This document shows positions 1 to 25,126 of a stretch of DNA of 25,425 nucleotides, in pieces. The notes below the pieces were generated by a model. It searched no databases, was not told the DNA's origin, and saw only the letters and a program-made list of their open reading frames with translations. Position 1 is the stretch's first letter. Every line of letters starts with the position of its first letter. The stretch is from a virus, in IMG/VR virus record IMGVR_UViG_3300022916_000083, positions 1 to 25,425 of that record. One strand, given 5' to 3'. Position numbers and translations under genes: made by a program.

Positions 1-660
1 CAACAAGATCGAGTCCTGGAGCTGCTCGGCGCTCAAGCCAGCTGCGGCGGAGACCACGCCGGTGCGCTCGATGTCCTCGGCGGCCGAGCGAATCGCGTCG
101 CCGCCCTCGCGCAGAGCTCCAACAACGCCACGGCCCGCCCGGCCGAAGATGTCCATCGCGACCTGAGATTGCTCCGCGTCATCGCGCAGGGTGCCGAACC
201 GGTCGCCAACGGTGGCCAGCGTCTCAGCCAGCGTCATCCCGGAGAGGTCTTCAACGGTCAGGTTCAGCTTCTCGAGTGCGTCCTTCGCCTCGCCGGTGCC
301 GTCGCGCGCGTCGGCGAGGTTGCGCTGGAGGTCCTGGAATGCACGGCCAGCCCGGACAGACCCGCTCGTCATCAGGTCGAGCACACCCTGAGCGGTGTCC
401 AGCTCCTCGATCGCCGCTCCGACCTGCCGAGCTTCCTTCGCGACCTGGTTGAGATCTGAGCTGAGGGTGACCGCGGACTTCGCGATACCGACGATCGCAG
501 CGGTCACGGCAACGCCGGCCGTCGCCATGACCGCGAACCCGACCTTGGCGATCTTGCTCGCGGCAGCGTCCAGCCCGCTCAACGACTTCGCGGTGGAGTC
601 GATCTCCTTCTTCGCGCTCTTCGCTGTGGCGCCGATGACCATCTTGAGGACGTCAGCCAC
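1..660 (-). CDS. Tape measure protein, N-terminal part (cut by window edge)
   Basis: The reading frame is open for 220 codons from a GTG at 660 to the window edge. Tape measure proteins set tail length and help pass DNA across the membrane. The visible part starts VADVLKMVIGATAKSAKKEI, then has a small-residue-rich hydrophobic stretch at about residues 28-50 (VGFAVMATAGVAV). Long Ala-rich helical segments follow, containing GTGEAKDALEKLNLTVEDLSG, a pattern common near the N-terminus of tape measure proteins. The GTG lies inside the end of the frameshifted chaperone gene (GTGGCTGA, 8-bp overlap). An ATG at 642 is the other possible start. The position directly after the G/GT chaperone pair is the classic siphovirus order and is the main support. 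The length and any lytic domain lie outside the window. Confidence 0.85.
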   Translation of the reverse strand, partial: MADVLKMVIGATAKSAKKEIDSTAKSLSGLDAAASKIAKVGFAVMATAGVAVTAAIVGIAKSAVTLSSDLNQVAKEARQVGAAIEELDTAQGVLDLMTSGSVRAGRAFQDLQRNLADARDGTGEAKDALEKLNLTVEDLSGMTLAETLATVGDRFGTLRDDAEQSQVAMDIFGRAGRGVVGALREGGDAIRSAAEDIERTGVVSAAAGLSAEQLQDSILL

Positions 661-5997: not shown

Positions 5998-6960
5998 CTA
6001 CGCGACGACGGTGCTGTAGAGGTAGCCCAGCGCCACGGTCGGCGCGGAGAGCTGGTCATCGCGCACCATGTCGATCTGCTCGACGTAGCCGCCCGGGTGA
6101 TCCCAGGTTCGGACCTCGCCGTCCCGGGAGCCGCGCAGGCGCCACCGCTGCAGGCAGCTCTGGGGGGTCATCGCCTGGGGCGACGTCCGCAGCTTGCAGA
6201 AGAGGGCGAACTTGCCCCAGATCTTGGCGACGGTCGCCGTCTGCCCCTCGACCGCGGTGTTCGACCGCATCTTGCCGACCACGTAGTTGTCGACGTCCAG
6301 CGCCTCGGCGATCTGGGCGTCCTTGATCAGGCCGACCGTGTTCAGCGTCCTCGAGCTGTACTCCAGCACCGCGGGGTGCTGGCGGAGCTTCCGGTGCACG
6401 GCCTGACCGACCACACAGGTGTTCGGCTCCTCGCCGGTGGCGTCCTCGATGGAGTCCGCCGCGTCCTGTCCGTCGCTGACGGGGTCGGATGCGTCGTCGC
6501 TCCACTGGTCGGGGCCTGTCAGGGCCTCGGTTCGGCCGGTGAAGACGGCGGTCGAGAAGGCGATGGCCTCGGCCAGCCGCTCCCGATAGACGGCGTACTC
6601 GCGCACGAGGATCGCCGTGTGGACCACCCGCGTGTCGATGCCGTTCCTCAAGAGGGCCTGCTGGGTGCGCTTCGTGACCTTCGTCCCGAGGGCGCACTGC
6701 TCGACGTTCCAGCCGTCGATCTGGCTCATCGCGACGTCGATCGTCATCGGCTCCGTCTGGCCGTCCACCATGATCAGGCGGTTGCCGGGCGACTGCGACG
6801 CGAAGCCGCCGGACACGTTGATGAACTTGCCGGTGAGCGTCGGGACGTCCACCACGGGGAAGATCTGGTCGACGATCGCCGAGCCGGGATCCGAGCCGAG
6901 CAGTCGCGCGTAGTCGTCCAGGAGGACGTCGAGGCGCGCGGAGTTGACCGAGGTGCTCAT
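5998..6960 (-). CDS. Major capsid protein
   Basis: This 320-residue protein follows a decoration protein by an ATGA overlap and has GGAG five bases before ATG 6960. It starts MSTSVNSARLDVLLDDYARL. Segments such as FINVSGGFASQSPGNRLIM, AILVREYAVYRERLAEAIAF and a C-terminal DDQLSAPTVALGYLYSTVVA are typical of phage capsid proteins that follow Mu-I-like protease genes. The context (protease, DUF2190 protein, this gene, connectors) strongly supports the call. The protein has three Cys residues in the C-terminal half (CALG earlier, CVVG, CKLR, CLQR) that could form cross-links. The exact capsid family cannot be settled by eye. Confidence 0.82.
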   Translation of the reverse strand: MSTSVNSARLDVLLDDYARLLGSDPGSAIVDQIFPVVDVPTLTGKFINVSGGFASQSPGNRLIMVDGQTEPMTIDVAMSQIDGWNVEQCALGTKVTKRTQQALLRNGIDTRVVHTAILVREYAVYRERLAEAIAFSTAVFTGRTEALTGPDQWSDDASDPVSDGQDAADSIEDATGEEPNTCVVGQAVHRKLRQHPAVLEYSSRTLNTVGLIKDAQIAEALDVDNYVVGKMRSNTAVEGQTATVAKIWGKFALFCKLRTSPQAMTPQSCLQRWRLRGSRDGEVRTWDHPGGYVEQIDMVRDDQLSAPTVALGYLYSTVVA

Positions 6961-7351: not shown

Positions 7352-7876
7352 CTAGTTCGCGACCGGCCCGCTGTACGCGGCGGCCTTGATGGGATCGGAC
7401 ATGACGAGGCTCATTGCCTCGGCGTGTGCGGCGGCGGGCTCCATGCCCTTGTCGTCGACCAGTGCCTTCGCGGCGGCACGGACCTCGGCGATCACGGCGT
7501 CCTGCGGGGAGAGGGTGTCGGGGTCGCCACCGCCGCCAGCCGCCCGGGACGCGCCCTTGATGCGGCCGATCGGGTAGGTGGCCTCCACGTCCTCGGCGGG
7601 CAGGAGGCTCAGCGCGCGGCCGTACTGCTCCTTCTCGCCGGCCGTGATCCGGTTGTCCACGCACGCCTGCTCGATGACCCGATCGCGCTCCGCGGCGCTG
7701 AGGGTGTCGAGGGACGCCTTGAGCGCGTCGCGGTCCGTGGTCAGGGTCGTGACCGACTCCTCCAGGACCGGCACCTTCGAGGCGGCCAGCTTGAGGTTCT
7801 CGATCTCGACGAGGATCACTGCCTCGGCCGCGTCCTCGGGCTTGCCCACTGCGAGGGCGAGGTTCTTCAGGTCCAT
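7352..7876 (-). CDS. Nested scaffolding protein (internal start within the protease gene)
   Basis: An in-frame ATG at 7876 (MDLKNLALAVGKPEDAAEAV) is preceded by AGGAG at 7887..7883, with six bases between. This would give a separate 174-residue protein equal to the C-terminal part of the protease. Lambda C/Nu3 and Mu I/Z use exactly this arrangement to make scaffold in excess over protease. The product is helical, with VEIENLKLAASKVPVLEES and LTTDRDALKASLDTLSAAER predicted as a coiled coil, and ends in helices rich in Ala. This internal start is inferred from the ribosome site and family knowledge. Confidence 0.65.
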   Translation of the reverse strand: MDLKNLALAVGKPEDAAEAVILVEIENLKLAASKVPVLEESVTTLTTDRDALKASLDTLSAAERDRVIEQACVDNRITAGEKEQYGRALSLLPAEDVEATYPIGRIKGASRAAGGGGDPDTLSPQDAVIAEVRAAAKALVDDKGMEPAAAHAEAMSLVMSDPIKAAAYSGPVAN

Positions 7877-8662
7877 GTCGGTCTCCTGCTGGTCGGGGGC
7901 TCGTACGGTCGCCGCGAGCGGCTCCATCTCACCGATGAAGGGGTGGTTCGTGATCACGACGCCGAGCATCGCCCAGTCGTCTACGGGCTCGCCGGTGCTC
8001 CTGTGTTCGACCGTTCCGGGCGGGTCCGCCTCGATGCTGACCGAGTCGTACTCTTCGCCGAGCACGATCTCCTCTCCGCGGGCTGACCACTTCACGCGGC
8101 CGAGCAGGCGGACAACCCCGTCGTCGAGGGTGTCGACCTGCGTCTCCTTGACGCGGCCGACCGAGGGCGTGGACTCGTCGGAGTGGTCCGGGGTGCCGCG
8201 AATCGGGATGCCGGTCGGGTGGCGCCCATCGGTGAGCACGACCTGGGTTCCGCGATGGAGCGACTCGATCTGCTCCGCCGTGATGACGATCTCTTCCTGG
8301 CCGGAAGCTGCGGTGAAGCCGGCTCGCCCTGCCCGGTGTGTCCCGGTGCGGATGAGCTCGATCCAGACCGTGCCGTCGTCCGACTTCTCGCCAACGACCG
8401 CGAGCCGGACAGAGGCGTTCGACCACTGCATCGGCTCAGGAGTCTTGTACGAGTCGCACACCATCCAAGGCTTGTAGTCGCCGCCGATGGTGTCGAAGAG
8501 GTAGAGCCCGCAGCCCTGACCCTCGGTGTCGTCCTTGTAGATGTACGTCCGGTAGGAGCAGTCGATACAGCGGTGGCCCGAGCTGCCCTCTTGGTAGTTC
8601 GGGACGTCCGCCACCGACAGGGCGACCTGAGAGAAACGGAGCGGGGTGACCGGATCGACCAT
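7352..8662 (-). CDS. Prohead protease with scaffold domain (phage Mu gpI-like)
   Basis: This 436-residue protein is read from ATG 8662, with AGGGG close upstream. The N-terminus (residues 32-69) has four Cys in C-x2-C-x15-C-x17-C spacing, HRCIDC then CGLYLFDTIGG and MVCDSY, so it likely binds metal. Residues 88-253 resemble the Mu I protease: PIRGTPDHSDESTPS, then LGRVKWSARGEEIVLGEEYD with SVSIEAD, then VVITNHPFIGEMEPLAA. The histidine after D159 and the serine near 207-209 are candidate catalytic residues. From about 263 the protein is a helical scaffold-type domain. The protease matures the prohead and degrades the scaffold. Its start region abuts a plus-strand promoter. Confidence 0.8.
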   Translation of the reverse strand: MVDPVTPLRFSQVALSVADVPNYQEGSSGHRCIDCSYRTYIYKDDTEGQGCGLYLFDTIGGDYKPWMVCDSYKTPEPMQWSNASVRLAVVGEKSDDGTVWIELIRTGTHRAGRAGFTAASGQEEIVITAEQIESLHRGTQVVLTDGRHPTGIPIRGTPDHSDESTPSVGRVKETQVDTLDDGVVRLLGRVKWSARGEEIVLGEEYDSVSIEADPPGTVEHRSTGEPVDDWAMLGVVITNHPFIGEMEPLAATVRAPDQQETDMDLKNLALAVGKPEDAAEAVILVEIENLKLAASKVPVLEESVTTLTTDRDALKASLDTLSAAERDRVIEQACVDNRITAGEKEQYGRALSLLPAEDVEATYPIGRIKGASRAAGGGGDPDTLSPQDAVIAEVRAAAKALVDDKGMEPAAAHAEAMSLVMSDPIKAAAYSGPVAN

Positions 8663-10026: not shown

Positions 10027-10259
10027 CCCGGGTCCATCTCCAGCGGCCACTCCTCGAGGGACGACCACTCCACATCCGGGCGCTGCTCGAACCACTGCGA
10101 CCGATAGGGCTCTGACGCTGGCGCGATGCCGTCCCGTCGTCGTCGTGCTCGCACCGCCTCAGCGCTAATCCCGTTCATCGCACCCACCGCCTCGTCGCAG
10201 TGCTCGCCGATCCCAGCAGGGAGAGGGCCGGGCTTCCTGCCGCTGCCCTTGCCGCCCAT
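10023..10259 (-). CDS. Small helix-turn-helix-like protein following the portal
   Basis: This 78-residue protein begins MGGKGSGRKPGPLPAGIGEH, the type of basic N-terminus seen in small phage DNA-binding proteins. It starts at an ATG overlapping the portal stop (TGATG). CDEAVGAMNGISAEAVRARR followed by RRDGI fits a helix-turn-helix core in which GIS is the turn. The C-terminus (VEWSSLEEWPLEMDPG) is acidic and aromatic. The 3' end overlaps the opposing HNH gene by four bases, so the two genes converge exactly. A longer start at 10316 is a shadow of the portal end. It is unlike the true small terminase at 17157..17585. Confidence 0.6.
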   Translation of the reverse strand: MGGKGSGRKPGPLPAGIGEHCDEAVGAMNGISAEAVRARRRRDGIAPASEPYRSQWFEQRPDVEWSSLEEWPLEMDPG

Positions 10260-12790
10260 CAGGATGCGATCCCCAGTGTGATGCAGTTGCACAGGTCTTG
10301 CGGAACCGCCTCGCACCAGCCGGCCGGGGTGGCGTAGACGTCGAGCTGGTCAGCGCCGAACGTCTCCCCGTCGTGCCCGAGGCAGGCGTCGCAGCTGTCC
10401 GACTCCAGCATCGCCGAGTAGATGTACAGGCTGAATCCCTCAGCCCTCAACTCCTGCGACCGCCCCAGACCAAAGATGGTGTTCACGTCCGCTTGAGCCT
10501 GGTGCATGTCGCTGGACGTCGCCAGAGACTCCACAGACGTCGTCACGATCCCGGCGATGGAAGCGGCCTCCGGCAGCGCCCCGCCCGTGCCCTGAGCCTG
10601 TAGCGCTGCTGTGGCTGTCATCCTGACCTTGTCCGCCTGCGACGTCGCCGTGGTCTTCGCGACCGAGTAGATCGAGTCCTCCGGATCGATGTCGTCGAAG
10701 TCGGACTCCGGCATGTCGTCGTCGGGCGGTGGCGCCTGGACCTCGCGCTTCTTCGCCAGCTCCCACCCGTCCGGCCGCTTCCCGGCCTGCTCCATGCGCT
10801 CCTTGAGAGACAGGCGGATCAGCCACGGGTCACCGACTCCGCACCCGCACCCGGACCCCGACAACCGAGCAGGGGCAGGAACGTCGCCACCCTCTCCGAC
10901 ATCGACATCACCTCGTGCGATCCGCTTCTGCAACTCCGGGTCAGCCGCGATCCTGTCGGACTCGTTCCGCACGGACTCGCCGCCGGCCCGGTAGGCGGCT
11001 CGAAGGTTCGCCGACAGCGCTTCGATCAGCGCCTTCTGTCCAGGGACCGGCCTCGACTGCGCGTCCGGCAGGTCGGCCGACGTGGTCAGCTCGCGGCCGT
11101 AGGGCTCTGCGATCCGCTGCCGCCACTCGTAGATGATGCGGGCCTGCTCCTCCTTGCCAGCGTCGGTCTTGCCTCGAGTCTCGCTGAACCGGACGGCTTC
11201 CTCACAGGCGCGCAGTGCCCGACCACGCGGGCCGGCGATGACGCGGTCTCCATAGCCCGCCGCCAGCGCGATCGTCGCCGACTGTCCCTGCTCCTCGGCG
11301 ACGTCCTCCTCGACCTCATCGTCTGCCGGCTTCGGCTTCGCGCCCTTCTTCGGAGGCGCCTCCTGCTCCTCGGCCGTGTCGTCGTCGACCTCGTCGTCCG
11401 GGTCTGGCTCATCCGGGTTGAGCGGACCGCTCACCGGCTCCGGCCGCCCGGGCAGCGACAGCACCTCTCGGATCCTGTCCTCGATACCGCGGTCCGGGTC
11501 GGTCAACACGCCCTTGCTGGACGCATCCACGATCGCCGTCACCAGCGCGGCGGGGTCGCCGATCCGGATCTCAGGAGGCTGGACCGTCGGGAAGCGCCGC
11601 ACGTCGGGGAAGTTCTTCGCGATGAGCAGCTTGATCGGCGCATGCCGGCCCACCGACAGGGCGCGGGCGATCATGTTCGCCGCCTGCTGGAGCGAGATCG
11701 TGAAGAAGAGCACCTGGCCGTCGTGGAGGCTGAGCGCGCCCTTCGTCTCGCCGGTCCGCAGGAACGTCGCCAGGACGGACATGCCCATCGAATGCCGCTT
11801 GGCGGTGATCGCCTCCCTGAGCATGTCGCCGCGGAACGGAAACTCCTGGAAGGTGAGCTTGTAGCCCTTCGGGAACATCATCGCGGAGCGGAAATCAGCC
11901 CGGTAGTTCTGAGCCGCGAGGTTCACCGCGTCGATCGTCTCTTGCGTCCCGTCGAAGCCCTGGACGGTCGGGTCCACCTCGACCGTCGGCACGCCGTAGG
12001 CAGCCCGCGAGAAGCCCTGCGACTCCAGCACGCGGTAGGTGCTCGCCGCCATGTAGTCGCCGTAGGACGGACGGAAGGCCCCCATCGGGGCAGGGTCGCC
12101 GCCGGCCGGCATGTAGCGCAGGTTCAGCAGCTCGTCAGCGGTCAGCGCCACCGCCTGACGGTTCGCTCCCGGAGGAAGGTCGCCAGTCCGGGGCCACTGC
12201 TCCAGCCCGTAGCGCTCATCCGGATCCTGGACCCACTTCTTCACCGTCCAAGGCATGAGCGGCTTGAGACCCAGCAGCGTTCGCTTCAGCTCCCGGTCGT
12301 ACGGCCAGTACGGCTCCGACGGCGTGAACCCACGCCACTGGTACTGGACAGCCTGCTCGAGCCAGCCGTGCCATCCGCCGTCAGAGTCCAGGTGCTCGAA
12401 CAGGGCCAGGTCTGCGAAGTCCGTGGCCTCCTGCTCCTGCGGAGTCGGGTCCTCCGGCGCCAGCATTCCCCACGTGCCGGACATCAGCGGAAGCGTCATC
12501 GCCAGCCGCATCGCCTGAAGCGTCGGCTCCTCGCGGACCATCTTCTCGACGACTCCGATCCGTCCCGGAGCTCCCCACCACTCGCTCCCCGTGAGGTTCC
12601 GGTTGCCCTCCATGTCGGGGAGACCGCCGCGGAGCTGCGCGCCGCCCCACCCCCGAGAGGACCGCCCGCCAACCGACAGCGCCAGGCCCTGGTCGAAGCC
12701 GACGGGGTAGAACCTGGTCAGCTCGCCGCTCTTGACCGCTGCGGCGATGCCCTCAGCCGTGACCACTGGGGCGGTTGTGTCGGCTGGCAT
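10259..12790 (-). CDS. Portal protein (DUF935, Mu gp29-like) fused to MuF-like C-terminus
   Basis: This 843-residue protein is unusually long. Residues about 60-450 match DUF935 portals: MVREEPTLQAMRLAMTLPLM, then WEMLAPED-like WGMLAPEDPTPQEQEATDF, LKPLMPWTVKKWVQDPDER, and a core helix AANMIARALSVGR. Residues 459-503 are an acidic/Lys-rich linker (DDEVDDDTAEEQEAPPKKG). The C-terminal 110 residues resemble the MuF (phage head morphogenesis) domain: YSAMLESDSCDACLGHDGE with C800/C803, then WCEAVPQDLCNC. In Mu these are two genes (29 and 30); here they are one chain. The portal forms the DNA entry ring; MuF joins it to the head. An overlapping ATG links it to the gene before. Confidence 0.85.
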   Translation of the reverse strand: MPADTTAPVVTAEGIAAAVKSGELTRFYPVGFDQGLALSVGGRSSRGWGGAQLRGGLPDMEGNRNLTGSEWWGAPGRIGVVEKMVREEPTLQAMRLAMTLPLMSGTWGMLAPEDPTPQEQEATDFADLALFEHLDSDGGWHGWLEQAVQYQWRGFTPSEPYWPYDRELKRTLLGLKPLMPWTVKKWVQDPDERYGLEQWPRTGDLPPGANRQAVALTADELLNLRYMPAGGDPAPMGAFRPSYGDYMAASTYRVLESQGFSRAAYGVPTVEVDPTVQGFDGTQETIDAVNLAAQNYRADFRSAMMFPKGYKLTFQEFPFRGDMLREAITAKRHSMGMSVLATFLRTGETKGALSLHDGQVLFFTISLQQAANMIARALSVGRHAPIKLLIAKNFPDVRRFPTVQPPEIRIGDPAALVTAIVDASSKGVLTDPDRGIEDRIREVLSLPGRPEPVSGPLNPDEPDPDDEVDDDTAEEQEAPPKKGAKPKPADDEVEEDVAEEQGQSATIALAAGYGDRVIAGPRGRALRACEEAVRFSETRGKTDAGKEEQARIIYEWRQRIAEPYGRELTTSADLPDAQSRPVPGQKALIEALSANLRAAYRAGGESVRNESDRIAADPELQKRIARGDVDVGEGGDVPAPARLSGSGCGCGVGDPWLIRLSLKERMEQAGKRPDGWELAKKREVQAPPPDDDMPESDFDDIDPEDSIYSVAKTTATSQADKVRMTATAALQAQGTGGALPEAASIAGIVTTSVESLATSSDMHQAQADVNTIFGLGRSQELRAEGFSLYIYSAMLESDSCDACLGHDGETFGADQLDVYATPAGWCEAVPQDLCNCITLGIAS

Positions 12791-15626: not shown

Positions 15627-17156
15627 CTACCCGTTCCCATCCCACTCCGACGTCCCCCACTCGGACGGAGACGTCGAGCCCATCGCGGACCAGACCGTTG
15701 GGACGTCTGCCAGCGCGGCGTTCGCCTTGCTGAAGTCGAGGGCCCCGCGCTCGAAGACGCCGTGTCGGACGACCGCGTAGTAGCGGACAGCGTCCGAAGG
15801 ATGGTCGTGAATCCCGTCCTTCACCGGCTCGTCGCTCCCTGGCTTGTTGTCCGGGTAGCGGTAGCCGCTGAACGACCCGTGGATGCCGACCTTCCCCCGA
15901 GGAAAGGTGCCGGTGTGCGCCGGCTCAGTCAGGTGTTCTGCGACGAAGAACCGGCGCGCCCCGTCTGCACCCTGGAGCCGAGCGCGGACGACCTCGATCC
16001 CGTTGGGGATGTGGCGGTCCAGCAGGCTCCTCGGATAGTCCAGACCTCCGATCAGGACGCCGGCCGCCTTCAGCTCGTGGGTATAGACCTGGACGTCACG
16101 CAGCCCCGTCTGGCTGTTCCTCGCCCTTCCTGCCGGATCGCAGTAGACCGCCTGCAGCCGGACCCCTCTGTCCTTGCACACCGCCGCGATGGCCTGGGCG
16201 TGGCGCTGGGAGAGCGTGTCGCTACCGACCACCTCGTCGGTCACGCAGTCGACGACACGATCTCCAGATCCGAGCGACACGACGACCCCCCCCGCCTGGT
16301 CGTGGACAGGGACGTCCTGGATGAGACCAAACCACGGCGACCGCCCGCCGAAGTCCAGGGCGCCGTAGCTGGGCCTGTCCGGCGACGTGCGGACCGGGAG
16401 AAGCGACCCGCCGGCCGACGCCGAGGTCGCGTCGTAGGTCCAGAAAACGCGACCCTCCATGACCACGAACTCGCCATCGAGATAGGCCCTGGCCATCTGC
16501 GGAGACAAGCTGGCTGCGATGTCGTCGGCGTAGTCCGCGGGAAGGTGCGGATTGTCCCGTGTCCGCGCTCGGATGTACTTCCGGCCCGGAACGCCTCGCC
16601 CGAACTCGTCCCACAACCACCCCATCTCGGGCACCGAGGCGACACACCGGCGCCGGCAGCGCGACGCGGGCAGCCGGACACGAGCTGAGGCGATCTCCCA
16701 GGCCGAACGACGAATCAGGCGGCCCTCGTCGATGAAGACGGCGCAGAGGTTCACGCCCTCCAGCGAGCCGGGGACGTCGGCTGAGGCGAAGTAGGTGCGA
16801 TGATCGTTCCACCACGTCAGACACAGGTCAGCCGCGCTCCAGTCCTTGACCATCGGTCCGAGCGTCACCGAGGCGCTGTCAGTGCCCGACGGCCACCTCT
16901 TCGCGCCAGTGGGCCGTAGGACGTCGACGATCGTCGAGAAGACGGTCCGCCGCTGGAGACGGTACGACGGGGACACAGCCATCGACGGGAGGCCCGGGTT
17001 CTCAGCGACGCATCGGAGCATCTCCAGCACGAGCCACACGGTCTTGGACGACCCCCAGCCGCCTCCGACGAACACGAACCGTTCCGGGCTGTTCAGCGCC
17101 TCTATCTGCGCGCCGAACGGAACCAGCCCGAGGGCTACTCTGTGCTGCTCGACCAC
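15627..17156 (-). CDS. terL: Terminase large subunit (ATPase/nuclease)
   Basis: This 509-residue protein starts with GTG 17156, directly after the small subunit's stop. It packages DNA into the prohead. Residues 31-39 (GGGWGSSKT) are the Walker A, and 139-144 (AVFIDE) the Walker B with the catalytic Glu. The C-terminal RNase H-like nuclease has acidic residues in YGALDFGG (268), VYCDPAG (340) and IHDHPSDAV (451/455), the usual three-Asp pattern. The linker includes WTYDATSASAGG. Length is normal for the family. The portal lies about 3 kb downstream, beyond several small genes, which is wider than usual. Confidence 0.9.
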   Translation of the reverse strand: MVEQHRVALGLVPFGAQIEALNSPERFVFVGGGWGSSKTVWLVLEMLRCVAENPGLPSMAVSPSYRLQRRTVFSTIVDVLRPTGAKRWPSGTDSASVTLGPMVKDWSAADLCLTWWNDHRTYFASADVPGSLEGVNLCAVFIDEGRLIRRSAWEIASARVRLPASRCRRRCVASVPEMGWLWDEFGRGVPGRKYIRARTRDNPHLPADYADDIAASLSPQMARAYLDGEFVVMEGRVFWTYDATSASAGGSLLPVRTSPDRPSYGALDFGGRSPWFGLIQDVPVHDQAGGVVVSLGSGDRVVDCVTDEVVGSDTLSQRHAQAIAAVCKDRGVRLQAVYCDPAGRARNSQTGLRDVQVYTHELKAAGVLIGGLDYPRSLLDRHIPNGIEVVRARLQGADGARRFFVAEHLTEPAHTGTFPRGKVGIHGSFSGYRYPDNKPGSDEPVKDGIHDHPSDAVRYYAVVRHGVFERGALDFSKANAALADVPTVWSAMGSTSPSEWGTSEWDGNG

Positions 17157-17585
17157 CTACTCCGCCGGCGGGTCGTCGTTGGGCGTCTTCTCGATCTCAT
17201 CGAAGGACGGCAGACCGAGATGGATGATCGGCGGACTGCGCCCGATCTCGACCTTGACCTTGTCGATCCCGAGCACCCTGGCCTCGAGCCCGAGCATCGA
17301 CGCGACGGCCCCCCACTTCTTGTCGGCCGCTGCGCGCCGCTGGTGACTCCTCAGCCGGTCCAGGAACTCGGCGCGGGCCTCCCGCGGATCCAGGTCGTCA
17401 AAGGCCGCAGCGCGCGACGCGATCCGCTTTGCGACCTCGAGCTTGTAGGTCCGGATCGTCCTGGTCGACGTTCCGATCTGAACAGCGAGAGCTGCCTCAA
17501 GAGAAGAGCTCCATCCCTGGGCCTCGATCGCGTCCTTGACAGCGCGGATCCGCTCTTCGCGCTCCATGCTCGAGACGTTGCCCAT
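17157..17585 (-). CDS. terS: Terminase small subunit (probable)
   Basis: This 142-residue protein lies directly before the large subunit and ends where that one begins, as small subunits do. MGNVSSMEREERIRAVKDAI starts it, and SLEAALAVQIGTSTRTIRTY is a helix-turn-helix with the turn at IGTS. A central helical region (REARAEFLDRLRSHQRRAAA) would support oligomers, and the end is acidic (EIEKTPNDDPPAE). It recognises the packaging site. A later ATG (MEREERIR) is an alternative start. No strong ribosome site is visible for either. Confidence 0.75.
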   Translation of the reverse strand: MGNVSSMEREERIRAVKDAIEAQGWSSSLEAALAVQIGTSTRTIRTYKLEVAKRIASRAAAFDDLDPREARAEFLDRLRSHQRRAAADKKWGAVASMLGLEARVLGIDKVKVEIGRSPPIIHLGLPSFDEIEKTPNDDPPAE

Positions 17586-17613: not shown

Positions 17614-18150
17614 TCAGCCTACCGCCCACCACCCGAGATTCGTCGTCAAGATCTTGTCGGCCACGGGCTCGGCGGTCTCGACGTCGAGGAACTGGTCTCC
17701 AGACCGCTGTACCAACTCGGCGGTCGTGGAGCTGGTGTGAATGACGACGAACTCGACGTCGTCCGGAATCGGACCTGACATCTTCGGGTATCCGTGTACA
17801 GGCCAGCAGTTCGGACACGGGCGCAGTCCGACACGGACGACCCTCGCGCTGTCTGGCAACTTCGTCCCGCAGAGTGCCGTTGCCGCCCCTGGCCGCCTTC
17901 GGTGTTCTCGTCGGCCGCCAACGAGCCGTACCCACTCCCAGCGCCTCAACTGGAACACGATCGGGACCTGGTAGGAGTCGGGTCCCGACTTGAACTTCTT
18001 CAACGGAGTTCCCCTGCCCCGCATGAGGCTTGCCCTGTTCGACGCTCTCGACTTCGAGATCCCGAGGAGTGTCGTGACTTGCCCGAGCGATTCTGCGCCC
18101 TGCCATGCCTGCTCGAACCGCTCGTCGCTGGCCGCTTTTGTTCTTCCCAT
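17614..18150 (-). CDS. Helix-turn-helix regulator, first gene of the virion module
   Basis: The start ATG at 18150 (MGRTKAASDERFEQAWQGAE) is fixed by a -10 box six bases upstream. Residues 12-56 form a HTH (FEQAWQGAESLGQVTTLLGI then SKSRASNRASLMRGRGTPLK). The same block, ungapped, occurs in the divergent gene at 18544..18837, with 16 of 45 identical residues. The rest has a Cys pair region (LRPCPNCWPVHGYPK) and VEFVVIHTSSTTAELVQ. Upstream is the shared control region. It could activate or repress one or both modules. It is 178 residues, far longer than the HTH alone. Confidence 0.65.
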   Translation of the reverse strand: MGRTKAASDERFEQAWQGAESLGQVTTLLGISKSRASNRASLMRGRGTPLKKFKSGPDSYQVPIVFQLRRWEWVRLVGGRREHRRRPGAATALCGTKLPDSARVVRVGLRPCPNCWPVHGYPKMSGPIPDDVEFVVIHTSSTTAELVQRSGDQFLDVETAEPVADKILTTNLGWWAVG

Positions 18151-18156
18151 GCCAGA

Positions 18157-18186
18157 ACCATAGGTTACGGCCCGTGCCTCCGTCAA
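18157..18186 (-). promoter_or_regulatory. Leaderless promoter of the virion module
   Basis: On the minus strand TTGACG (18186..18181) and TATGGT (18162..18157) are 18 bp apart, and the -10 box ends six bases before the ATG at 18150. The layout equals that of two other promoters in this window (8748..8775, 13144..13173). A dyad TCCCGT-N5-ACGGGA lies just upstream of the -35. Confidence 0.55.
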
Positions 18187-18459
18187 CTACTCCCGTTCGA
18201 TACGGGACTTCCCGCGACCCCCTTGAACATACGTGTATAGGGGAACGGCCCCCTCCCCTCCTTTTCCCCCTTACGTATATAAAGGGAAAGAAGAACGACC
18301 AGGCGGCTACGGCTAAAGCCGCGGAATCATTGAAGATTCGGCCCGGCCCTGAACCCAAACGTTGTTCCCTGTCCCGATACCTGACGACCGTTTGACGCGA
18401 TGCAGTGCGTTTTATATTCGCTTCCGGTTATCAATTCCGCCGCATTTCCAGACCATTAG

Positions 18460-18488
18460 TTGACCTGCGAGAGTACGCCGTCTAATGT
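18460..18488 (+). promoter_or_regulatory. Promoter of the plus-strand early module
   Basis: TTGACC (18460..18465) and TAATGT (18483..18488) are 17 bp apart on the plus strand. The start would be near 18495, giving a leader of about 49 nt that ends in GGAGGT (18535..18540) before the TTG start at 18544. Another -35-like TTGACG at 18392..18397 has a poorly spaced TATATT (15 bp) and is less likely. Confidence 0.5.
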
Positions 18489-18543
18489 CGACAAATAGGC
18501 ATTGGAACGCGATAACGACTCGCATCGACTATTCGGAGGTCGC

Positions 18544-18837
18544 TTGAATACGCAAGATTTCGTGACGATCTGGCAGGGCTCACCCACTCTCGCGGAGGTC
18601 ATCCGCCGGACCGGGTACAGCTCCAAGTACTGCTCGCAGAAGGCCACGAGGCTCCGCAAGGCGGGGATCGACCTCAAGCGGTTCGCCCGCGGGATGAGGG
18701 CCGAGGCGATCACCTGCCACGCCCCCGAGACGGCGCGCGGACTCCTCGCGCTGGAGGACATGGACGCCGAGGAGGAGGCTGCTCAGAAGAACGATGAGAA
18801 GCCCCCCTTCAACGACGACGACGGGGCGGACTGGTGA
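18544..18837 (+). CDS. Helix-turn-helix regulator, first gene of the early module
   Basis: The frame has no ATG near the start. A TTG at 18544 follows GGAGGT (18535..18540), so it is preferred over the TTG at 18502 and gives 97 residues. MNTQDFVTIWQGSPTLAEVI then RRTGYSSKYCSQKATRLRKA and GIDLKRFARG match the HTH block of the protein at 17614..18150 without gaps (16 of 45 residues identical). The tail is strongly acidic (EDMDAEEEAAQKNDEKPPFN). It is the first gene of the plus strand and is followed by an overlapping zinc-ribbon gene (TGATG). Likely a transcription regulator or an antagonist of its paralogue. Confidence 0.6.
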   Translation: MNTQDFVTIWQGSPTLAEVIRRTGYSSKYCSQKATRLRKAGIDLKRFARGMRAEAITCHAPETARGLLALEDMDAEEEAAQKNDEKPPFNDDDGADW

Positions 18838-19142
18838 TGGCCCCACAGCGCCCGGCGTGCTCCGCGTGCGGCTGCTCCCCGGTGGGTGCGAAGGACGGCG
18901 ACGAGTGCCTCCGGTGCTCGGGGAGGATGGTCGACCCGCACTTCCTGACCAAGGAGGATCCGGTCAAGGCGGCGAAGCCCAACCCCTACGACGTCGACGA
19001 GGCGATCAGCATCCTCGGCCCGGATCCGGCGATGGAGGACCGGCTGCGCAGGATGTTCGGCAAGGGCGACGCGGTGGCGGCGGCATGGCTGGTACGGCGG
19101 ATCGTGGACATGCGGAACGAAGAGATGGAGACGAGACGATGA
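18837..19142 (+). CDS. Small zinc-ribbon protein
   Basis: ATG 18837 overlaps the previous stop in TGATG form; a GTG at 18834 is the alternative start. The N-terminus has CSACGCSPVGAKDGDECLRC, four or five Cys forming a zinc ribbon or knuckle. The rest is helical and charged (KPNPYDVDEAISILGPDPAM, then EDRLRRMFGKGDAVAAAWLV). It ends in METRR in an ATGA overlap with the HD gene. Such proteins often bind DNA or partner proteins in replication modules. No specific family was recognised. Confidence 0.6.
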   Translation: MAPQRPACSACGCSPVGAKDGDECLRCSGRMVDPHFLTKEDPVKAAKPNPYDVDEAISILGPDPAMEDRLRRMFGKGDAVAAAWLVRRIVDMRNEEMETRR

Positions 19143-19999
19143 GGCCCGAGATCGCCACTCGCTCCGGGAAGCTCGTCAACCCCTTCGACCTCCAGCCCGA
19201 GGACGTCGACGTGTTGGACATCGCCCACGCGCTGTCCAACACGTGCCGCTGGACGGGTCACACGTCGCGTTTCTACTCGGTCGCCGAGCACAGCGTGCGG
19301 GTCGCTGAGCGGGCCAGGGAGCTGCTCGCCGAGGTGGGCCACGGGCTGCACACCCAGCTCCTCGGCGCGCTGTGGGGCCTGCTCCACGACGCACCCGAGG
19401 CGTACCTGGTCGACATGCCGAGGCCGCTCAAGGGCCGGATGATCATCTCCTCCGGTCCAGGACAGGGTGAATGTGACGGCGCGTGGTGGCGCCTTGAGGA
19501 TCGGATCGCCTCGACGGTCCTCGCCGGTCTCGGGCTCGGTCCGCTGAACCGGATCGTGGTAGCCGCCTCCACCGTCGAGATCGCAGATCGGGGGCTGCTC
19601 GCCACGGAGGCGCGCGACCTCATGCACGGGACGGACGGCTGGTCGTTCGACCCGGGCCCGCCGCTGGAGGGCCGCATCCCGTCCGCCGGTGGCGACCCGG
19701 TGCTGTGGCGCGACTCGTGGCTCCTGCTGCTGCGGACCGTCGCCGACGAGCTGGTCGAGATGGGTGCCTCCGAGGTCGCTGGCGTGAAGCCGATCCCGCT
19801 GCCAGCTCGGCAGGCGGCAGGACTGGACCAGGAGACCGTCGCCGACATCGCCGCCAACCTGGCCTCGACGATCTGCTGTGGGCAGACGGAGACCGGGCCT
19901 GCGTGGTCCGACGGCGATGTGATCCGCGTCGAGCACGACGGCTGGAGGCTGGCCTTCCGCGTCGTGCCGATCGGCGGCGAACCCATCGATCGCAGTTGA
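19139..19999 (+). CDS. HD-domain phosphohydrolase (5'-deoxynucleotidase family)
   Basis: This 286-residue protein starts at ATG 19139 (ATGA overlap). It has the HD pattern of 5'-deoxynucleotidases: FYSVAEHSVRVAE (H51), GLLHDAPEAYLVDMPRPLKG (H83, D84) and EIADRGLL (D140). HTSRFYS and TRSGKLVNPFD at the N-terminus match phage YfdR-like enzymes, which hydrolyse nucleotides. About 95 residues beyond the usual core follow (from ~190), including GVKPIPLPARQ and ASTICCGQTETGPAWSDGD, with no recognised domain. DatZ of Z-genome phages belongs to this superfamily, but no PurZ is seen. The TTGACA of the next promoter overlaps its stop codon. Confidence 0.8.
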   Translation: MRPEIATRSGKLVNPFDLQPEDVDVLDIAHALSNTCRWTGHTSRFYSVAEHSVRVAERARELLAEVGHGLHTQLLGALWGLLHDAPEAYLVDMPRPLKGRMIISSGPGQGECDGAWWRLEDRIASTVLAGLGLGPLNRIVVAASTVEIADRGLLATEARDLMHGTDGWSFDPGPPLEGRIPSAGGDPVLWRDSWLLLLRTVADELVEMGASEVAGVKPIPLPARQAAGLDQETVADIAANLASTICCGQTETGPAWSDGDVIRVEHDGWRLAFRVVPIGGEPIDRS

Positions 20000-20215: not shown

Positions 20216-20503
20216 GTGTCCGAATCCGCTGAATCACTGCTCGCCTTTGCCGTCGACGACAGCCCCACGCACCCCTGGGAGTGGACCTGCTCGGTTGCCT
20301 TCGCTGAGACTCGTGGAAAGGCAAGGTTCGCCGTTGCTCGCGAGTGGATGTTGGAGTGGGACGATGCACTGGCGCTTCGAGTTCGGCGCGTGCCCGAACT
20401 CGACCAGCACGCCGTCATCGACGAGGTGATCCTCGACGTTGCCGACCTACTCGCCATGACGGGAACTGACCCAGTAGCCCTTCGCGGAGTCCGTGGCCTG
20501 TGA
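20216..20503 (+). CDS. Small hypothetical protein before the primase
   Basis: This 95-residue protein starts at GTG 20216 with GGGGAG five bases upstream. MSESAESLLAFAVDDSPTHP, then WEWTCSVAFAETRGKARFAV and AREWMLEWDDALALRVRRV, suggest a mixed fold. The end (DEVILDVADLLAMTGTDPVA) is helical. It overlaps the primase start by four bases (GTGA), so it may help start translation of it. No family is recognised. Confidence 0.55.
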   Translation: MSESAESLLAFAVDDSPTHPWEWTCSVAFAETRGKARFAVAREWMLEWDDALALRVRRVPELDQHAVIDEVILDVADLLAMTGTDPVALRGVRGL

Positions 20504-22602
20504 CTGACCCCAGCACGCACGACGCCGCGTTGGCCTACGCGGAGCAGGGCTGGAGAGTCGTTCCCCTCCACTACCCGGTCGGCGATGGGAGCTGCTCCTG
20601 CGGGAAGTCGAGTTGCAACACAGCTGTCGGCAACGCCCCCGTCGGGAAGCACCCGCGCCTCACCGCGTGGCAGGACCGGGCCACAGTTGACCTCGACAAG
20701 GTGGACGCCTGGTTCGAGCGCGACCCGCGGAACAACGTGGGGATCGCCACGGGCTCCGGGCTCGTCGTCCTGGACATCGACCCGAAGGACGGCGGGTTCG
20801 AGACGCTCGACGCACTGCTAAAGGTGCACGGCGACCTCCCGACGACTCCGACGGTGGAGACGGGCTCGGGCGGCCGGCACTACTACTTCCACAGCTCCGA
20901 CGAGGTCCGCAACAGTGCAGGCAAGCTCGGCGCCGGGCTGGACATTCGAGGGGACGGCGGCCAGGTCGTCGCGCCCCCCTCGCTCCACAAGTCGGGTCAG
21001 CGGTACAGCTGGCTCGTGGGGCTCGACGACGAGGAGCCCGCTGAGCTGCCCGGGTGGATCCCCGAGGAGTTGGAGCGCGCCAGCAAACCGCGCCGCGCGA
21101 AGGTCGATCAGGACCCCGAGGATGTCATCGACGGGAAGCGGAACGACTGGCTGACGAGCAGGGCGGGGTCGCTCCGCCGGTTGTCGCTCGACACCGAGGC
21201 GATCCACGCCGCTTTGGTCGTCATGAACCGGGCGAAGTGCAAGCCGCCGCTGGACGATGACGAGGTCCTCAAGATCGCGAAGTCGGTCGCGAGCTACGCG
21301 CCGGGCCGGCACATCCCTCAGTCGCCGGACGACTGGGAGAACAAGCTGCGGCCGAAGCTTGACCGCAAGGGCAACGAGATCGGCTACATGCCGACCCGTC
21401 GCAACGTGGCGATCGTGCTGTCCAACGACAGCGATTGGCGCGGCAAGATCTGGTTCGACGCGACCCGCTCCAGGGTGTGTTTCGGTGACCAGTCCGTCGA
21501 GGACAGCGACTTCGTCGCGATCGCAAACACGCTCGACAAGCGGTACGACTGGCACAGCTTGAAGGTGGGGCTGATTCACGAGGCGGTGCTGGACGTGGCG
21601 CACCGGCATCAGGTCGACGTCCTGAGCGACTACCTGGAGTCGCTGACCTGGGACGGCGAGACGCGGATGGACCAGTGGCTCTATCACGGGCTGGGAGCCG
21701 AGTGGTCCGACCTGTCCCAAGCCTACTCGCGGAAGTTCATGATCCAGGCCGTCGCCCGCGCCTTGAGGCCCGGGTGCCAGGCGGACACCGTGTTGATCCT
21801 CGTGGGTCCGCAGGGCGCCGGGAAGTCGACGGCTTTCCGCATCCTGGCGGGTGACGAGTGGTTCAGCGACACGGTCGTGGACCTCAAGTCAAGGGATCGG
21901 TTCGCTCAGATCAACCGGGCGTGGGTCTACGAGTTCGCCGAGCTGGCGTCGTTCCGGGCGAGTCGCTCCGACTCGATCAAGGCGTTCCTGACATCGCGCG
22001 ACGACGTCTACCGGCCGCCGTACGCGCGGACAGAGGTCCACCACAAGCGCCGGGTCGTGTTCGTGGCCTCGACGAACGAGGACGAGTTCTTGGCCGACTA
22101 CACGGGCAGTCGGAGGTTCTGGCCGATCCGAGTCAAGGGGCCGCTCGACCGGCAGTGGCTCTCCGAGATGCGCGACCAGCTCTGGGCTGAGGCAGTCGTC
22201 GCGTTCAAGGCTGGCGAGCGGTGGTACCTCGACGACGAACTCGAGGGGCTCCGCGCCGGCGAGTCGCGCCAGTACCAGGAGCGCGACCCGTGGACGGAGC
22301 TGATCGCCGGGTGGGCACAGGACCGGGTCGACCCGTTCACGATGTCCGATGTGCTGGCGAAGGCCTGCAAGCTCGACCCGAGCCGTCAGAGCATGCGGGA
22401 GATGGCGCGCGCGTCGTCGATCCTGCGCGCCCTGGGCTACTACGCCTGTGACGGCATGGTCTACATCGACAGCAAGCAGGTGATGGGCCGGGTCTGGAAG
22501 CTGCCGGGAGACGTCGAGGACCTGGAGGCTGCGCGCCGGCGGCCCGCTGAGATGGTCGAGGCGTGTGAGGACGACGACGAGAGCGAACGGATCCCGATGT
22601 GA
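20500..22602 (+). CDS. Bifunctional primase-polymerase / SF3-type helicase
   Basis: This 700-residue protein starts at GTG 20500. Residues 1-160 are a PrimPol (AEP) domain: SCSCGKSSC (a possible zinc loop), GKHPR (49-53), LDIDPKDGG (91-99; catalytic Asp), ETGSGGRHYYFHS (120-132) and LDIRGDGGQVVAPPS (147-161). Residues 205-270 look like a primase C-terminal helix bundle. Residues about 385-545 form the VirE/SF3 helicase: Walker A GPQGAGKS (436-443), WVYEFAEL (475-482), VVFVASTNEDEFL (519-531) and the arginine-rich GSRRFWPI (536-543). It would prime and unwind phage DNA. Length and order are usual for phage and plasmid replication proteins. Confidence 0.87.
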   Translation: MTDPSTHDAALAYAEQGWRVVPLHYPVGDGSCSCGKSSCNTAVGNAPVGKHPRLTAWQDRATVDLDKVDAWFERDPRNNVGIATGSGLVVLDIDPKDGGFETLDALLKVHGDLPTTPTVETGSGGRHYYFHSSDEVRNSAGKLGAGLDIRGDGGQVVAPPSLHKSGQRYSWLVGLDDEEPAELPGWIPEELERASKPRRAKVDQDPEDVIDGKRNDWLTSRAGSLRRLSLDTEAIHAALVVMNRAKCKPPLDDDEVLKIAKSVASYAPGRHIPQSPDDWENKLRPKLDRKGNEIGYMPTRRNVAIVLSNDSDWRGKIWFDATRSRVCFGDQSVEDSDFVAIANTLDKRYDWHSLKVGLIHEAVLDVAHRHQVDVLSDYLESLTWDGETRMDQWLYHGLGAEWSDLSQAYSRKFMIQAVARALRPGCQADTVLILVGPQGAGKSTAFRILAGDEWFSDTVVDLKSRDRFAQINRAWVYEFAELASFRASRSDSIKAFLTSRDDVYRPPYARTEVHHKRRVVFVASTNEDEFLADYTGSRRFWPIRVKGPLDRQWLSEMRDQLWAEAVVAFKAGERWYLDDELEGLRAGESRQYQERDPWTELIAGWAQDRVDPFTMSDVLAKACKLDPSRQSMREMARASSILRALGYYACDGMVYIDSKQVMGRVWKLPGDVEDLEAARRRPAEMVEACEDDDESERIPM

Positions 22603-23957
22603 TCACCCTCTCCCCCGACCAGTCCGGCGCGCTCGACCACGTCCTGAGCCTGCTCCACGGCGGCGCGCGGGTGGTCACGCTGGCCGGTGCCGCTGGGACG
22701 GGCAAGACGACGATCATGCGCGAGGTGCTGGACAGATCTGGGTTCCCGTTCGTGCTCGCTGCCCCGACTGGTAAGGCTGCTCTGAGGCTGGAGGAGCTGA
22801 CTGGGCAGCCCGCGATGACGCTGCACCGGGTCGCGTACGCGGGAGCCAGGGAGTTGGACGACGGGTCGCTCGTGTTCCATCGGCGGGAAGCCGGCAGCGT
22901 GACCCCGTGGGGCGCGATCGACTTCGACCGCACGAACCGCCACGAGTACAACGACCAGGCGGCGAAGCTGCTCCGTGGGCTCGACCGCGCGCTGCTGATC
23001 ATCGACGAGGCGAGCATGGTCGGAACGCGGATCATGATGGACCTGATCGGCGGGGTGGACGTCGACGGGTGTCAGGTGCAGGCGGTGCTTGGGGAGGGGA
23101 TCCAGATCCTCGCCGTGGGCGACCACTGCCAGCTCCCGCCCGTCAAGGCGGAGCCGGCATTTGACCTCGAGGGCGCGGACGCTCGGCTCGACCGGGTGCA
23201 CCGACAGGCTGAGGGCTCCCCGTTGCTGGCGCTGGCGACGGAGTTGCGGACTCGGCGCGCCGTCCTCGACCGCCACCACCTGGCGCGATACGGGTTCCGG
23301 GCTCGACGGTCGAGCGCAACGGAGCTCGGGCACCGGATCGCGGTTCAGCTCGACATGGTGGGCTCGGACTTCGTCGTGCTGGTCTCGACGAACCGTCAGC
23401 GGCTCGCTGTGAACCGGGCTGCGCGGGCGGCGCTGCTGCTGCCTCCGATGTCTGAGGGCCCTGCTTGTGGCGAGCGGGTGATCCTGCTCGACAACAACTA
23501 CGGGATCCCGTGCGCGAACGGCGAGATCGGGACCGTGCTGGAGGCGCGACCCTGGACGGTGCAGGACTGGCTCGGGGAGGCTGCGTGTGGGTGGACGATG
23601 ACCGTCGACTTGGGGGACCGGGTCGCGCAGGTCTCGACGACGGCGGACGCGTGGACTCGGACTCAGCCTGCGGGCAAGGGCGGCCGAGTGCTCAAGTCCG
23701 AGCGCGACCGTCTGAAGCGGATCGACTACTCCGGAGGGCTGCACGGCGTGGAGGCGGGTCGAGTCCGTGGGCAGCTCGTCGGGTGCGCTCCGGCGTACGC
23801 GATCACGGTGCACAAGTCGCAGGGGTCGGAGTGGGATTGCGGTGTGTTCGTGATGGGCCGATGTGACTGGCTGGGGGCGGACGCCTGGAGGTTGCCCTAC
23901 ACGGGGATCACCCGGTTCCGCTCGGACTGCGACTTCGTCTATGGGGTGAACGGATGA
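22599..23957 (+). CDS. SF1B helicase (RecD/Dda-like)
   Basis: This 452-residue protein overlaps the primase gene by 4 bases, with a GTG start (MITLSPDQSGALDHVLSLLH). It is an AAA-type helicase: Walker A LAGAAGTGKTT (28-38), APTGKAA (55-61), Walker B LLIIDEASMVG (132-142), GDHCQLPPV (174-182), and the C-terminal AITVHKSQGSEWD (401-413) with YTGITRF (434-440). These match RecD/Dda enzymes that unwind 5' to 3' and clear proteins. The middle (residues 200-400) carries accessory beta parts (GERVILLDNNYGIPCANGEI). It probably helps the primase-helicase at forks. A four-base overlap links it to the methyltransferase. Confidence 0.88.
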   Translation: MITLSPDQSGALDHVLSLLHGGARVVTLAGAAGTGKTTIMREVLDRSGFPFVLAAPTGKAALRLEELTGQPAMTLHRVAYAGARELDDGSLVFHRREAGSVTPWGAIDFDRTNRHEYNDQAAKLLRGLDRALLIIDEASMVGTRIMMDLIGGVDVDGCQVQAVLGEGIQILAVGDHCQLPPVKAEPAFDLEGADARLDRVHRQAEGSPLLALATELRTRRAVLDRHHLARYGFRARRSSATELGHRIAVQLDMVGSDFVVLVSTNRQRLAVNRAARAALLLPPMSEGPACGERVILLDNNYGIPCANGEIGTVLEARPWTVQDWLGEAACGWTMTVDLGDRVAQVSTTADAWTRTQPAGKGGRVLKSERDRLKRIDYSGGLHGVEAGRVRGQLVGCAPAYAITVHKSQGSEWDCGVFVMGRCDWLGADAWRLPYTGITRFRSDCDFVYGVNG

Positions 23958-25126
23958 GGGCCGGCTCCCTCTTCTCGGGGATCGGCGGGCTCGACATCGC
24001 CTGTGAGTGGGCCTTCGGGGCTTCGACGGTCTGGCAGCTCGACCTCGTTGGCGAGGCGATCCGCCGCCGGCACTTCCCCGATGCGCTCCAGGTGACCGCC
24101 GACGTGGCGACAGTCGACCCGCTGGGCCTTCCACCAATCGACGTGCTCTGCGCTGGCTTTTCCTGTCAGGATCTGTCCTGTGCTGGCAAGGGCGGGTCGC
24201 GTGACGACCTGGACGCGGGCGACAAGACCGGCCCGACCTATCGCGGTGTGATCCGCTTCGTCGAGGCCCTTCGGCCCGCGTGGGTCGTGCTGGAGAACGT
24301 GCCCGCCGTGCTCAAGCACCGGGACCGCATCGAGACCGACCTGCAGGCCGCGGGGGGCGCGAGGGGCTACGGGGTGACGTGGGTCAAGGCCCGTGCCCTC
24401 GACGCCGGGGCGCCGCACATTCGCCGGAGGGTGTTCGCCGTCGCCGAGCTCGGCGGGACGCCGGGCGGCGTGGTCGACGCGGACCGGGCCGGCATGTGGA
24501 CGTCGGAGGGGGAACAGGCGTGGCAGACGCCGCGAGCAAGCGAGGGGAAAATTGGCGGCTGGAGCAGCAAGGAGGCGACACGTAAGAGCCCATCGCTCGG
24601 GTTCGAGGTCCAGGTCCGCCCGTGGGCCACGCCGACGGTAAATGAGAGCGGCACGGGTCGGCGGGGGCCAGGCGCCGGCCGGGGATCGTGCCCCGGTGAC
24701 GAGTCGATCTCAGGGCAGGTCCGCCCGTTGGCGACCCCTCGGGCAAGCGAGGAACGCGCCTCCGCCTCCCAGGGCACGGTATCGCTGGGCCGGGAACTGC
24801 GCCGGTCCGAGTGGGGACGGCGCCTCAGCCCCGATTGGATTGAGACCCTCATGGGCTACCCGGTCGGCTGGACGCTTCCGACCGGCCCGGCCCTTGCCGC
24901 AGAAGGCGCCCCGGCCTGGCCCCGAGGTCGCTACCCGGCGACCTGGGACCGCGCCACGCCCTGGCCCGGCTACGCCTGGGAGCCCCCGCGCACCCTGCCA
25001 GACGGTCCGCCGTGCCCTGGCCGCCCGGCAAGGATCCGCGGCCTCGGAAACGCAGTGAACCCGCAGTCTGGTGCGCTCGCAATCGGTACAGCGCTTCGTC
25101 CGCCACAGCCGAGCCTCTTCGGATGA
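23954..25126 (+). CDS. DNA cytosine-5 methyltransferase
   Basis: This 390-residue protein has C5 methyltransferase motifs: I (LFSGIGGLD, 6-14), IV (GFSCQDLS, 68-75, Cys71 the nucleophile), VI (WVVLENVP, 110-117), VIII (IRRRVFAVA, 156-164) and X (GLGNAVNPQSGALAIG, 363-378). The motif IV has Ser where Pro is usual (PCQ). The target recognition region (190-267) has three copies of a short repeat: WQTPRASE, WATPTVNE and LATPRASE. A phage-type LSPDWIETLMGYPVGWT follows. It likely protects phage DNA from host restriction. No paired restriction enzyme is seen. Confidence 0.85.
   Translation: MRAGSLFSGIGGLDIACEWAFGASTVWQLDLVGEAIRRRHFPDALQVTADVATVDPLGLPPIDVLCAGFSCQDLSCAGKGGSRDDLDAGDKTGPTYRGVIRFVEALRPAWVVLENVPAVLKHRDRIETDLQAAGGARGYGVTWVKARALDAGAPHIRRRVFAVAELGGTPGGVVDADRAGMWTSEGEQAWQTPRASEGKIGGWSSKEATRKSPSLGFEVQVRPWATPTVNESGTGRRGPGAGRGSCPGDESISGQVRPLATPRASEERASASQGTVSLGRELRRSEWGRRLSPDWIETLMGYPVGWTLPTGPALAAEGAPAWPRGRYPATWDRATPWPGYAWEPPRTLPDGPPCPGRPARIRGLGNAVNPQSGALAIGTALRPPQPSLFG

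Follow-up and report, generated by a model that had tools for sequence, protein, structure and literature searches.

Two members of an unmodelled phage HTH family at the heads of divergent packaging and replication modules in one virus record

A virus record of 25,425 bases, analysed here over its whole length (the window), carries two new members of a recurrent phage HTH family. Protein A heads the packaging and structural genes on the minus strand, and protein B heads the replication genes on the plus strand (Table 1). The finding is a modest one: the HTH domain recurs in phages yet is unmodelled in Pfam, PHROGs and NCBIfam, and what is unusual is the placement of its two copies. The explanation preferred here, which is given about an even chance, is that A and B are anciently diverged members of one small family that reside on different modules and act locally.

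The two arms of the window diverge at positions 18151-18543. Profile searches place the large terminase, portal, head protease and major capsid protein on the minus strand, and the HD phosphatase-like protein, Prim-Pol/VapE primase-helicase, Dda/RecD-like helicase and C5 methyltransferase on the plus strand, in agreement with the divergent modules of the preliminary description. The probable small terminase subunit had no match in a profile search, and the small Cys-rich protein matches no family in Pfam, PHROG or NCBIfam. The Prim-Pol and VapE-like domains are fused in one 700-aa protein, at least 80% of which is covered in only 2 of 1,325 matching phage records. Single-protein scans found no relatives of A, B or the primase, and for TerL a single short contig that ends inside the gene. 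Neither the HTH family nor TerL was found in 396 genomes of the Amycolatopsis phylum, and Rfam and tRNA searches of the window gave no match.

Table 1. Positions of the features discussed in the text (window coordinates).
Feature	Position	Strand	Evidence or remark
Major capsid protein	5998..6960	-	phrog_1005, E 1.5e-31
Head maturation protease	7352..8662	-	phrog_328, E 2.5e-12
Portal protein	10259..12790	-	phrog_113, E 2.4e-25
Large terminase subunit (TerL)	15627..17156	-	phrog_2, E 3.7e-24
Probable small terminase subunit (TerS)	17157..17585	-	inferred from position before TerL
A, 178 aa, N-terminal three-helix HTH and Cys-containing C-terminal tail	17614..18150	-	heads packaging/structural genes
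HTH domain of A	17983..18123	-	
Intergenic control region, 393 bp	18151..18543		54.7% GC vs 68.2% for window
Predicted promoter of A, TTGACG-18-TATGGT	18157..18186	-	sigma70-like
Interrupted palindrome ACTCCCGTTCGATACGGGACT	18189..18209		candidate operator, next to the -35 box of A on its upstream side
Predicted promoter of B, TTGACC-17-TAATGT	18460..18488	+	sigma70-like
B, 97 aa, N-terminal three-helix HTH and acidic tail	18544..18837	+	heads replication genes
HTH domain of B	18553..18693	+	
Small Cys-rich protein (CSACG...CLRC)	18834..19142	+	sequence; overlaps stop of B
HD-domain deoxynucleoside monophosphate phosphatase-like	19139..19999	+	phrog_318, E 2.2e-40
Prim-Pol/VapE primase-helicase	20500..22602	+	PF09250 E 5.4e-49; PF05272 E 4.5e-77
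Dda/RecD-like helicase	22599..23957	+	phrog_325, E 2.9e-73
C5 cytosine DNA methyltransferase	23954..25126	+	PF00145, E 5.1e-24

The 45-residue HTH block described earlier as common to both proteins is real. BLASTP aligns it with 16 identities (36%) and no gaps (E 6e-7), and over 47 columns the BLOSUM62 score of the pair is 75, compared with a maximum of 30 among shuffles. Chance similarity is rejected, as none of 200,000 shuffles was as good. The family profile A3 matches A at E 2.8e-22 and B at E 3e-23, its rows including A and B themselves; each also scores well against independently found family members. In AlphaFold2 models both proteins adopt a three-helix HTH arrangement with domain pLDDT mostly above 90. 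The helices span residues 9-18, 22-29 and 33-45 in A (mean pLDDT 97-98 over residues 11-50) and residues 3-12, 16-23 and 27-39 in B (mean pLDDT 95-96 over residues 1-40). Almost all the Foldseek matches listed for the two models are HTH regulators, none of them significant. Profile matches in the PDB were disregarded, being mostly to designed repeat proteins and lacking a single significant stretch. Neither A nor B has a match in Pfam, PHROG or NCBIfam.

Beyond the block the proteins part ways, as the preliminary description had stated. The tail of A carries Cys residues (ALCG, RPCPNC; CGTKL...CPNC) and that of B, read from the sequence as EEEAAQKNDEKPPFNDDDGADW, is acidic and ends in DDDGADW. 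Both tails are modelled with low confidence, and a search of 50,697 phage records with the tail of A found no match at E 10. The pattern H...C...CPNC in this tail (17614-17980) may be metal-binding. GC content at the third codon position is 0.78 in A and 0.90 in B, compared with 0.83-0.96 in most neighbours, values that fit coding genes. B starts at a TTG (18544) preceded by GGAGGT. For A, the ORF finder lists a TTG at 18186; the ATG at 18150 is the more likely start, because the predicted promoter puts the start of transcription on that ATG, and the mRNA of A would then be leaderless.

Family members were retrieved from IMG/VR by means of degenerate DNA patterns that encode the block, and were confirmed by profile. 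Such retrieval favours consensus-like members, and since pattern scans need fixed codons the resulting count is a lower bound: at least 25 other viral records, including near-copies such as G605/G619, carry the domain, and 23 of the 25 were searched whole with the profile. The domain is phage-borne and 47 residues long, with invariant F, W, G, A, R, G, L and K. Judged by sequence, A and B belong to this scattered, unnamed family. Other members often end in a short C-terminal segment, D...L..L, where A and B have other tails. The family members tested gave no convincing Pfam, PHROG or NCBIfam match, and a tblastn search with the family consensus returned nothing from 50,697 phage and 72,556 plasmid records. 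A protein of a planctomycete MAG (L043, 4482-5498, minus strand) has an unusual multi-HTH architecture with five tandem copies of the domain, and the genome scans revealed one further protein with a single copy. In another protein (L067, 6292-6855, plus strand) the family domain is preceded by additional HTH-like segments.

Where their context is readable, family members often sit in replication or recombination modules. They occur together with Sak4 and PolA (G620, G008), together with an exonuclease and Sak4 (G614), or beside DnaB (G003, G006, G608, G609 and G627, the context of G006 and G627 being assigned by likeness to scanned records). Because of this recurrence, the domain is a candidate for early regulation or for an accessory role in replication. 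By score, B is closest to G620/L061, which has an exonuclease on one side and Sak4/PolA on the other, and A to G005/L007, which has an HNH gene and TerS-TerL downstream of it on the same strand. These neighbours, one match each, fit a replication-type context for B and a packaging-type context for A.

The same contexts raise a possible, more tentative alternative, that A and B are accessory DNA-binding proteins instead of transcription factors, B aiding the replication proteins at an origin and A aiding DNA recognition by the terminase. Members found repeatedly inside replication and recombination clusters, and not only at operon heads, would suit such a role, as would the position of A immediately before the probable TerS. 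The acidic tail of B ends in an aromatic residue, a feature of some replication proteins, and the AT-rich divergence region lies near the cumulative GC-skew minimum. However, the coding strand switches at the point where the skew changes, and no iterons were found in 18151-18543.

The control region holds one predicted promoter for each arm, about 270 bp apart. Sites of the type TTGAC-16..19-TANNNT occur at a frequency of 0.02 per shuffled region, and promoter-type sites on both strands in none of 200 shuffles; a stricter scan was passed only by the promoter of A and missed that of B. With the gene order, these predictions fit the proposal that A and B are probably first in their transcription units. 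A single interrupted palindrome, in which 7 of 8 pairs match, is not repeated anywhere else in the window even when up to 3 mismatches are tolerated, and palindromes in the control region are no more numerous than chance would produce (77 of 200 shuffles). The two promoters have no repeat or palindrome in common and only marginal two-copy repeats are present, in a search that would miss weak or degenerate operators.

The third helices also differ, being KSRASNRASLMR in A and SKYCSQKATRLR in B. In the family alignment these recognition helices are identical at 3 of 12 residues and differ at 9, and two of the three common residues (Ala and Arg) are invariant across family alignments. As the exposed residues of this helix differ, the sequences suggest that A and B have different target sites.

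These results bear on the preliminary suggestion that A and B are paralogues competing for the same operators in 18151-18543, thereby choosing between packaging and replication expression. Homologous HTHs in divergent units, separated by a single AT-richer intergenic region between two predicted promoters, invited this reading. It is now unlikely, given the distance between the promoters, the lack of common repeats and the divergence of the recognition helices, whose few identities are mostly those of the family as a whole. The proteins are also not each other's closest relatives by score. Furthermore, the two other viral lineages that carry the domain twice have it in convergent orientation, with 3-8 kb between the copies: G002 at 29398-29535 (+) and 37455-37595 (-), and G605 at 33430-33567 (+) and 36929-37069 (-), with G619 likewise. 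Most other carriers, which are distant, have one member only. Quite unlikely as well is that two HTH lineages have become module-specific, the first moving with replication genes and the second with packaging genes, and have met here at one divergence point, where they coordinate early and late transcription through related but distinct recognition helices.

The notion of a dedicated paralogous pair is not supported by comparison with the rest of the family. Among 24 partners, B ranks 15th for A and A ranks 19th for B, and the A-B pair is 197th of 300 by score. Without the positions fixed by the search patterns it is average, ranking 61st of 105 pairs in a smaller set. None of 200 bootstrap trees joins A and B as sisters, although an alignment of 47 columns resolves the tree poorly. 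A recent duplication is accordingly set aside, each protein having closer relatives; an old one is compatible with the AU test, by which sisterhood is not rejected (p 0.30). A duplication within this phage lineage with overlapping functions kept, for which the shared block in adjacent genes and the AU result might speak, is very improbable in view of the low identity, the 14 (A) and 18 (B) other members that score higher, and the bootstrap trees.

As the two predicted promoters are separate and no operator common to them was found, local control or an accessory role is more likely than competition. In the preferred explanation, that of anciently diverged members acting locally, A and B would each bind their own site near their own promoter. 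A would mainly tune the packaging and structural operon, and B the replication operon. Their differing tails would set what else each protein contacts: that of A is possibly metal-binding, and the acidic one of B might make contact with RNA polymerase or with proteins of replication. With two members and two predicted promoters around one 393-bp region, the window is a conveniently small system for testing.

Among known systems, lambda CI and Cro resemble the present case in that they, too, are structurally related HTH proteins whose transcription units diverge around one control region. Because lambda already has this arrangement, relatedness alone does not set the window apart from the standard cI/Cro layouts, from which the preliminary description had distinguished it; the placement of A and B at the heads of packaging and replication modules does. 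The comparison also differs in that CI/Cro-type operators, shared, repeated and overlapping both promoters, were looked for in the control region and not found, and that the predicted promoters are about 270 bp apart. Neither protein matches the CI/Cro families (HTH_3 and related) in Pfam, PHROG or NCBIfam. In the titles and abstract openings of the literature searched, an arrangement of the A/B type is not described.

The central switch of phi29 is similar in that its early and late units diverge from a junction at which DNA-binding regulators act. These regulators, p4 and p6, are not homologous to each other; to our knowledge, neither is a member of the present HTH family. RinA/ArpU-type late regulators are likewise small DNA-binding proteins encoded next to the terminase. 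They usually end the early operon next to TerS, whereas A heads the packaging operon and matches no named family in Pfam, PHROG or NCBIfam. The unnamed family itself (G620, G008, G005, G003 and others) shares with A and B the same 47-residue domain, but its other carriers usually have one copy, whereas A and B flank one intergenic region.
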